Shown: one piece after another, positions 56,473 through 58,095 of the stretch
How the letters are laid out: the number at the start of each line of letters is the position of its first letter
Position numbering within the stretch: position 1 is the first letter of the stretch
From: Parapedobacter soli
GTDB lineage: Bacteria > Bacteroidota > Bacteroidia > Sphingobacteriales > Sphingobacteriaceae
Direction of reading: 5' to 3'
DNA length: 64,000 nt
Assembly (NCBI RefSeq): GCF_025460835.1
Contig: NZ_JAMXAY010000003.1
Span: forward strand, 62,001 to 126,000
Translations under genes and position numbers: made by a program
Notes under the pieces: generated by a model
Seen by the model: the letters and a program-made list of their open reading frames with translations, nothing else
Databases searched by the model: none
Told to the model about the DNA's origin: nothing

Positions 56473-58095
56473 ATGATTAATGTATCGAATCTTTCGCTCC
56501 GCTACGGTAAGCGGGTATTGTTTGAAGACGTCAACCTGAAATTCACCCCCGGCAATTGCTACGGCATCATCGGTGCCAACGGTGCGGGCAAATCCACGTT
56601 CCTCAAGATCATCTCGGGCGATGTGGACCCCACGACTGGGTCGGTAAGCTTCACGCCCGGCGAGCGCATGGCGGTACTCAAGCAAGACCACTACGCATTC
56701 GATGAGTATTCGGTCCTCGAAACGGTAATGATGGGCCATCAGGAGCTCTATGACATCATGAAAGAAAAGGATGCCATCTACGCCAAGGAAGATTTTTCGG
56801 ATGCCGACGGCGAGCGCGCCGGTGAGCTGGAGGCCAAATTTGCGGAAATGGACGGCTGGAATGCTGAGAGCGATGCAGCTACATTGCTGAGCAACCTGGG
56901 CATCGATGAGAGCCTACATTATAAATTGGTAAAAGAACTGGACGGCAACCAGAAAGTACGCGTACTCCTGGCCCAGGCACTTTTCGGCAACCCAGACATC
57001 CTGCTGCTCGACGAGCCCACCAACGACCTGGACATCCACACCATCGCGTGGCTGGAAGACTTTCTGGCGGGCTACGAAGCTATCGTGTTGGTCGTATCCC
57101 ACGACAGGCACTTCCTCGATTCCGTGTGTACCCATGTAGTCGACATCGACTTCGGCAAGATGACCATCTATACAGGAAACTATACCTTCTGGTACGAATC
57201 GAGCCAACTGGCCTTGAAACAACGTGCCGACCAGAATAAGAAGATGGAAGACAAGGTGAAGGAGCTGCAGGAATTCATCCGCAGGTTCAGTGCCAATGCG
57301 TCGAAATCGAAGCAAGCCACCAGCCGGAAAAAAGCACTCGAAAAGATCAACCTGGAAGAGATCAAACCTTCCAACCGTAAATACCCGGCCATCATGTTCA
57401 ACACGATGGCGCGGGAAGCCGGCGACCAGATCCTGCACGTGGAGAAACTCGGTAAAACACTGAATGGGGAACCGCTGTTCAGCGACGTTAATTTCATGGT
57501 AAACAAGGGTGACAAAATTGCCATCCTTTCACAAAATAGCCTGGCCACCACAGCGTTATACGACATCCTTACTGGGCGCGACGGCGATTACGCCGGCAGT
57601 TTCAAATGGGGGGTCACGATTAGTGTGGCCGATATCCCGATGGATAACAGCCCGTATTTCGAAGGCAAATCGGAGAACCTGATCGACTGGCTTCGCGACT
57701 ATTCCGCGGGCGACAAAGATGAGCAGTTCATCCGCGGCTTCCTGGGCAAGATGCTCTTTTCAGGGGAAGAGGTACTAAAAAAATGTTCCGTGCTATCCGG
57801 TGGTGAGAAAATGCGCTGTATGTTTTCGCGGATGATGCTGCAACAAGCCAATATGTTGCTGTTTGATGAGCCCACCAACCACTTAGACTTGGAGTCCATC
57901 ACGGCACTCAACAATGGCATGGTCGATTTCCGCGGCAGCATCCTCTTTACCTCGCGCGACCACGAGCTTACGCAGACTGTGGCCAACCGCATCATCGAGC
58001 TGACGCCGAACGGCATCATCGACAAGCTGATGAGTTATGACGACTACATCAGCAGCGAGGCGGTGAAAGAGCAACGGGAAGCGATGTACGCCTAA
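56473..58095 (+). CDS. ABC-F family ATPase (YbiT-like) with one degenerate ATP site
   Basis: A 540-residue soluble protein with two ABC domains and no membrane part; ABC-F proteins act on the ribosome. Domain 1: Walker [10 protein letters not shown], signature position LDGNQKVRV (not LSGGQ), Walker [13 protein letters not shown], switch His in VVSHDRHF. A linker of charged helices follows (about 245-305). Domain 2: Walker A position [12 protein letters not shown] lacks the Gly and Lys, signature LSGGEKMRC is intact, Walker [13 protein letters not shown] is intact, switch position reads TSRDHE (Arg for His). The composite site made of domain 2 Walker A and domain 1 signature therefore looks inactive, the other intact. 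Confidence 0.94.

Follow-up and report, generated by a model that had tools for sequence, protein, structure and literature searches.

In ABC proteins, each composite ATP site is built from five elements of one domain (A-loop, Walker A, Q-loop, Walker B and H-switch) and the signature of its partner (PMC7756269). M. tuberculosis EttA and PoxtA share with the protein described here the ABC-F architecture and, if it behaves like its relatives, binding to the ribosomal E site (PMC8782954, PMC8987054). Unlike this protein, mycobacterial EttA has conserved motifs and nucleotide at both sites; it engages its two nucleotides unequally before hydrolysis (PMC8782954), indicating that inequality between sites is not foreign to the ABC-F family. 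PoxtA with both Glu residues changed contained two ATP molecules (PMC8987054). ABCE1 is also a ribosome-acting twin-ABC protein with two unequal sites, but it belongs to a separate family and, according to the section headings of the paper, occludes ATP in both sites (PMC6124641). The solved structure closest in sequence to our protein is E. coli YbiT (PDB 9njf, 44% identity), known, by the titles of 9njf and 9nlf, as the EQ2 mutant. Its tandem fold is matched and its domain 1 signature is also non-canonical, whereas the A-loop, Walker A, Q-loop, Walker B and H-switch of its domain 2 are all canonical.

The nearest analogue for the arrangement reported here is the transporter Pdr5, in which all motifs of one site are altered, even the Walker A Lys (PMC7756269). 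Our protein likewise has most motifs of a composite site altered and keeps the Walker B Glu (Glu466) that Pdr5 has lost. The motifs of degenerate transporters are described as constant among orthologues (PMC7756269), whereas those of the YbiT/YkpA clade drift. Degenerate-site transporters are membrane proteins; the Pfam matches of our protein are limited to the ABC domain, the linker and overlapping P-loop NTPase models. Judged by these domains and motifs, it would work like a Pdr5-type degenerate-site protein and is not a member of the membrane transporters.

Degenerate sites are thus already known in ABC transporters. Among the open-licence PMC papers listed in literature searches, none described a degenerate ATP site in YbiT, YkpA or any other ABC-F, and earlier publication elsewhere is possible. 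The text of Takada et al. 2024 (PMC11381351) does not contain the words Walker, degenerate or signature, and that of the tree-of-life ABC-F survey (PMC6723617) mentions Walker once and degenerate never.

The gene and its two composite sites

The window, a stretch of 64,000 nucleotides from Parapedobacter soli, carries a YbiT/YkpA-type ABC-F ATPase gene that coincides exactly with an open reading frame at 56473-58095 on the forward strand (540 aa); all features given below by position lie on the same strand. Two stretches match PF00005 (123.9 bits), indicating two ABC ATPase domains per chain, and the interdomain linker (PF12848, PtIM; residues 223-307, 57139-57393) scored 80.5 bits against a cut-off of 25.9, which places the protein among the ABC-Fs. 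The genome has four PF12848 genes; the three others encode different ABC-Fs with an intact domain 2 Walker A. The best NCBIfam model was NF011646 (PRK15064), for which the window protein scored 640.9 bits and B. velezensis YkpA 676.2, both below the cut-off of 762, and E. coli YbiT 1067.1. Membership of the YbiT/YkpA subfamily in the sense of Murina et al. 2019 was indicated by the grouping of 60 YbiT sequences, with E. coli YbiT and Bacillus YkpA among them, apart from five paralogues with an SH-aLRT of 99, in a quick tree with long outgroup branches. The NF011646 cut-off was passed by one of the seven YbiT-like proteins scored, that of E. coli; Paenibacillus L127, L183, L114 and L279 fell below it together with the window protein and B. 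velezensis YkpA. Upstream, an open reading frame that by eye looks like a LacI-type regulator (55416-56423, same strand) ends 49 bases before the ABC-F gene.

We refer to the composite site holding the domain 1 Walker A as site A and to that holding the domain 2 Walker A as site B. In ABC composite sites the D-loop pairs with the signature. Frequencies below refer to 264 aligned YbiT sequences, of which 262 entered the larger tree. Domain 1 contributes to site A the A-loop residue Tyr11 (56503-56505; aromatic in 252/264), the Walker A GANGAGKS (residues 34-41, 56572-56595; G37, G39 and K40 unchanged in 262/262), the Q-loop Gln71 (56683-56685; Gln in 262/262), the Walker B with catalytic Glu181 (residues 176-187 including the D-loop, 56998-57033; E181 in 262/262) and the H-switch VVSHDR (residues 207-212, 57091-57108; H210 in 262/262). 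Domain 2 completes the site with the signature LSGGE (residues 441-445, 57793-57807; S442 and G444 in 262/262) and D-loop 2 (residues 469-472, within 57853-57888; H470 and D472 in 262/262).

Site B is altered in nearly every part. The aromatic residue of the domain 2 A-loop is replaced by Leu330 (57460-57462; position taken from the YbiT-only alignment), the former Walker A reads SQNSLATT (residues 353-360, 57529-57552; canonical in 17/264), the alignment places Met390 at the Q-loop Gln position (57640-57642) and the H-switch is FTSRDH (residues 492-497, 57946-57963), with Arg495 for a His that is lost in 47/262 sequences. The signature facing this site, in domain 1, is the non-canonical LDGNQ (residues 156-160, 56938-56952; canonical in 3/264); D-loop 1 (residues 184-187, within 56998-57033), whose position 185 is variable (1.90 bits), faces it too. 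Glu466 of the domain 2 Walker B (residues 461-472 including the D-loop, 57853-57888) is the only one of these motif residues to survive, and it is replaced in 67/262 sequences. The protein therefore does not have the two canonical sites of EttA-type ABC-Fs. Residue by residue, this agreed with the first-pass annotation, which had read the Walker A and H-switch of domain 1 and the signature of domain 2 as canonical, and the Walker A (SQNSLATT) and H-switch (SRD) of domain 2 and the signature of domain 1 (LDGNQ) as altered. Its view of a coherent pattern, one site canonical and the other degenerate, was supported and can be extended by the loss of the domain 2 A-loop and Q-loop residues, which it had not listed.

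Spread of the altered site and constraint on its residues

The phylum-wide protein searches used no motif patterns and E limits of 1e-100 to 1e-110. In 395 Bacteroidota genomes (E <= 1e-100) there were 116 matches, every one of which was read. Domain 2 Walker A was degenerate in 109, 101 without the Lys and 8 with it. Orthologues with an intact domain 2 Walker A, which the first-pass annotation had regarded as the sign of a local decay, amounted to seven distant matches (40-42% identity) outside the degenerate clade. Among the genomes listed, in order of kinship, as own, same family or same class, 96 of 98 had the gene, and this near-universal presence in the class speaks against decay. All 43 matches in 199 Bacillota genomes were degenerate, 30 of them keeping the Lys. 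In 148 genomes of a further phylum, 24 matches were found in 21 genomes (16 degenerate, 5 intact and 3 fragments, which were set aside). A scan of named genomes with the patterns SHDRHFL[ND] and [ED]PTNHLDL, which favours loci whose H-switch in domain 1 and Walker B in domain 2 are intact, gave 80 degenerate loci among its best 80 from Bacillota and Bacteroidota. From a plasmid collection, 8 of 288 matching records were read: four were intact, three degenerate and one too broken to tell.

B. velezensis YkpA (L299) belongs to the same degenerate clade as the window protein. Its former Walker A is GRNELAVT, without the Lys, and a Lys occupies its Q-loop position; it keeps Glu466 and, unlike the window protein, His495. 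Its gene lies near those for a ketopantoate reductase and an aminopeptidase, ykpC and mreBH. Two other ykpA-type genes were interrupted, each in a single genome: L295 (G591) by a TAG inside the match and L305 (Limosilactobacillus fermentum), which matched in two pieces. Degenerate-type YbiTs were also carried by an assembly titled Deltaproteobacteria (L183) and by genomes of its phylum (L262-L276). In L183 (GGSSLART) and L269 (GDSTLART) the Walker A Lys is replaced by Arg.

YbiT proteins were separated from paralogues at 395 bits, a cut of our own choosing, leaving 264 sequences once duplicates had been removed: 178 lacked the Walker A Lys, 69 had the Lys without GxxGxGK and 17 were intact. 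The intact ones came from E. coli, Providencia, three Pseudoalteromonas, the seven distant Bacteroidota and, with five sequences, the further phylum. Ten identical sequences were dropped beforehand, as were the short or broken-up L277 and L305 and the fragments L278 and L284; the trees also exclude the truncated L113 and L295, whose match contains one TAG. Gln was present at the domain 2 Q-loop position in 5/178 sequences without the Lys, 3/69 degenerate sequences that keep it and 17/17 intact ones. An aromatic residue was found at the domain 2 A-loop in 6/189 degenerate against 8/8 intact sequences, counted in a YbiT-only alignment because in the mixed paralogue alignment gaps and shifted letters made this column unreliable for distant sequences. 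The first-pass annotation had left open whether the pattern was clade-wide or the Arg for His confined to this protein; the pattern proved clade-wide, and Arg495 occurred in all 11 sequences of the window's family, the window protein included, while His prevails in most other families.

Other ABC-Fs were represented by 26 genes (27 sequences from seven genomes; L206 and L230 are one gene), three of them from the same genome as the window protein. Domain 2 Walker A was intact in 26/26, and the Ser and Gly of the domain 1 signature in 26/27 sequences; a few were imperfect at other motifs, one with the domain 1 signature LAGGF, one truncated before the domain 2 Walker B and one with Thr in the Q-loop. 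A general ABC-F trait was ruled out by these 26 genes, from only seven genomes, and a trait of Bacteroidota alone by the Bacillota YkpA-type proteins that share the pattern.

Changes at each position were counted on a FastTree tree of the 262 sequences built without the motif columns. At site A there were none at G37, G39, K40, Q71, E181, H210, S442, G444, H470 and D472. At site B, we counted 45 changes at the position of Lys359, 44 at Gly356, 22 at Gly358, 58 at Gln390, 19 at Glu466 and 17 at His495, and in the opposing signature 69 at Ser157 and 65 at Gly159. D-loop 1 had 22 changes at position 185 and one at Asp187. Across the 247 sequences of the degenerate clade, the mean entropy of six key residues was 0.00 bits at site A and 2.41 bits at site B. 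The six site B positions, which were chosen by us, varied more than random sixes of the 540 positions (P = 0.0016). D-loop 2 was invariant at 470-472 and 474, and D-loop 1 variable at 185, 188 and 189. Outside the motifs, the window protein is well conserved among its relatives. At site A itself, the first letter of the domain 2 signature varied in a few sequences (CSGGE, ISGGE, MSGGE) and the domain 1 A-loop was non-aromatic (Leu, Ile or Val) in 11/264, one more sequence being truncated. These 11 were Bacillota-type, for example L167, L176, L187 and L291.

The altered site has not drifted uniformly. Glu466 was retained in 195/262 sequences and His495 in 215/262, which suggests, from the sequences, more retention than a wholly useless site would have. 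In the 247 degenerate sequences, position 8 of the old Walker A was Thr or Ser in 238 and Asp465 was kept in 244; the Walker A Lys was kept in 69, the Gly at motif position 4 in 11 and that at position 6 in 2, so some members may still hold nucleotide. Where Glu466 was replaced, Gln (27/262), Thr, Asp, Gly, Ser and other residues occurred. The same Glu-to-Gln substitution is introduced experimentally to trap ABC-Fs on ribosomes. Losses of Glu466 (67 sequences) and of the H-switch His (47 sequences) coincided in 2/245. When losses were simulated as independent, P for this near-absence of joint loss ranged from 0.008 to 0.23. The same simulations indicated no association of Lys loss with Glu or His loss, and tests on independent pairs (6 to 7 pairs) gave no significant correlated loss among site B residues.

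Probable order of the changes and the modelled P-loop

A smaller tree of 65 sequences (60 YbiT representatives and five paralogues) was quick and had long outgroup branches. In it, the 54 degenerate sequences formed one clade (SH-aLRT 97) that joined the E. coli type at 94, with the remaining intact YbiTs outside the clade uniting the two. The 22 Bacteroidota sequences lacking the Lys formed a clade of their own (99); two Bacteroidota sequences of family f17 keep the Lys and were placed among Bacillota sequences. On the 262-sequence tree, the degenerate Walker A required one change, and the losses of Lys, Gln, Glu and His required 13, 8, 12 and 13, respectively.

The domain 1 signature has a history of its own. 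It is altered despite an intact domain 2 in E. coli YbiT (VAPGW) and in the seven distant Bacteroidota (LPTDL or LPNDL), near canonical in five sequences of the further phylum (LSGGY) and canonical in three degenerate sequences (LSGGE). Since the signature of E. coli YbiT is non-canonical and its domain 2 Walker A intact, the signature change need not have been part of that site's decay, and the mixed states, LSGGE in three degenerate sequences among them, indicate that this signature may have changed or reverted more than once. Of the three defects that the first-pass annotation had assigned to one site, all are present, but the domain 1 signature change is older and already found in E. coli YbiT. 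The likeliest order, as far as the trees and motifs tell, would be the signature first, the Walker A pattern once and the remaining residues piecemeal. Five sequences (L279-L282 and L285), with frames of 653-736 aa and 42-43% identity to L183, have an intact domain 2 and the domain 1 signature LSGGY; they are possibly near the ancestral YbiT state. By these sequence comparisons, the pattern marks a large and old branch across Bacteroidota and Bacillota and not a local decay.

AlphaFold models were made without ligand. For the window protein, modelled with 41 relatives (42 sequences), pLDDT was 89 and pTM 0.83. In domain 1, a helix (residues 40-48) followed a five-residue loop and began at motif position 7, whereas in domain 2 the helix (residues 356-366) followed after two residues only and began at motif position 4; with this early start, the model turns the domain 2 P-loop into an extra turn of helix. 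The Lys-keeping Bacillota protein L146 (GPNELAKT at 352; 26 sequences, pLDDT 85.6, pTM 0.64) similarly had its helix from residue 355, motif position 4. ABC-F chains headed the Foldseek and VIA-align results, and E. coli YbiT and ATP-bound human ABCF1 ranked high among them. Over the full chain, superposition on these was loose (rmsd 4 to 13), which is what a different placement of the two domains would produce.

A proposed one-ATP cycle and its alternatives

We propose that the window protein is a working YbiT/YkpA-type ABC-F that runs on a single hydrolytic ATP site, site A, with site B non-catalytic and probably empty, and we give this reading a probability of roughly three in four. ATP bound at site A, between the A-loop, Walker A, Q-loop, Glu181 and H-switch of domain 1 and the signature and D-loop of domain 2, would close the cassettes. 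The closed form would enter the ribosomal E site with the linker pointing towards the peptidyl-transferase centre, and hydrolysis, expected at site A only, would open the dimer and release the factor. One ATP would then suffice for both closure and release. Site B would not hydrolyse and probably would not bind ATP, serving instead as a fixed contact or hinge whose P-loop would now be a helical turn. Ribosome binding, like action in the E site, is presumed by analogy with relatives.

In vivo, B. subtilis YkpA acts on stretches of Lys, Arg and Glu (PMC11381351). By its B. velezensis relative, it should share the degenerate site. Proteins with such a site are therefore probably active, and a single ATP at site A would be the simplest cycle for them. 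With less assurance than for the protein itself, we lean towards a switch of the whole Bacillota/Bacteroidota clade to a one-ATP cycle, with a nucleotide-free site B, a P-loop filled by helix and a domain 1 signature whose earlier weakening, still visible in E. coli YbiT, would have prepared the loss.

The most serious alternative, which we nevertheless regard as unlikely, is that site B is catalytically dead but permanently occupied by ATP, as a static glue that keeps its half of the dimer shut while site A cycles, a role proposed for degenerate exporters. In exporters the degenerate site probably retains its ATP through several rounds, and Pdr5, with all motifs of one site altered, still binds MgATP there with an affinity comparable to that of the intact site (PMC7756269); the frequent retention of Asp465, of the old Walker A Thr or Ser and, in 69 of the 247 degenerate sequences, of the Lys would fit such a role. 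However, orthologous transporters reportedly keep their degenerate motifs (PMC7756269), whereas here the six key positions drift beyond random expectation, and the window protein has lost the adenine-stacking, phosphate-binding and Gln positions altogether, its P-loop being modelled as helix.

It is far less probable that site B works through other residues, such as a substitute base for the Lys or His, or with another nucleotide. Many sequences do have Lys or Arg at the second or fifth position of the former Walker A (SKDSRATT), and Lys is the commonest residue at the Q-loop position (85/247), but these substitutes are not clade-wide, the window protein has none of them (SQNSLATT, Met390) and Glu466 itself has gone in 67/262. 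Three altered motifs in one copy would, taken alone, fit a decaying gene, but a decay confined to this gene, or an error in its sequencing, has a negligible probability and was ruled out by same-family relatives of 80-85% identity with the same kind of changes, in addition to the prevalence of degenerate sites in Bacteroidota and Bacillota and the good conservation of the rest of the protein.

If site A alone drives the cycle as proposed, neither E-site binding nor action at the peptidyl-transferase centre nor release would require the second ATP of ABC-Fs. Work on ABC-Fs relies on mutants with both catalytic Glu residues changed and on a picture of two ATP sites (PMC11282234). In a YkpA-type protein, where this position is naturally Gln in about a tenth of the sequences in the tree, such a double mutant may amount to a single one. 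Whether one ATP is enough for binding, action and release would become directly testable in a clade whose second site is naturally dead and whose Bacillus member is easy to handle genetically.
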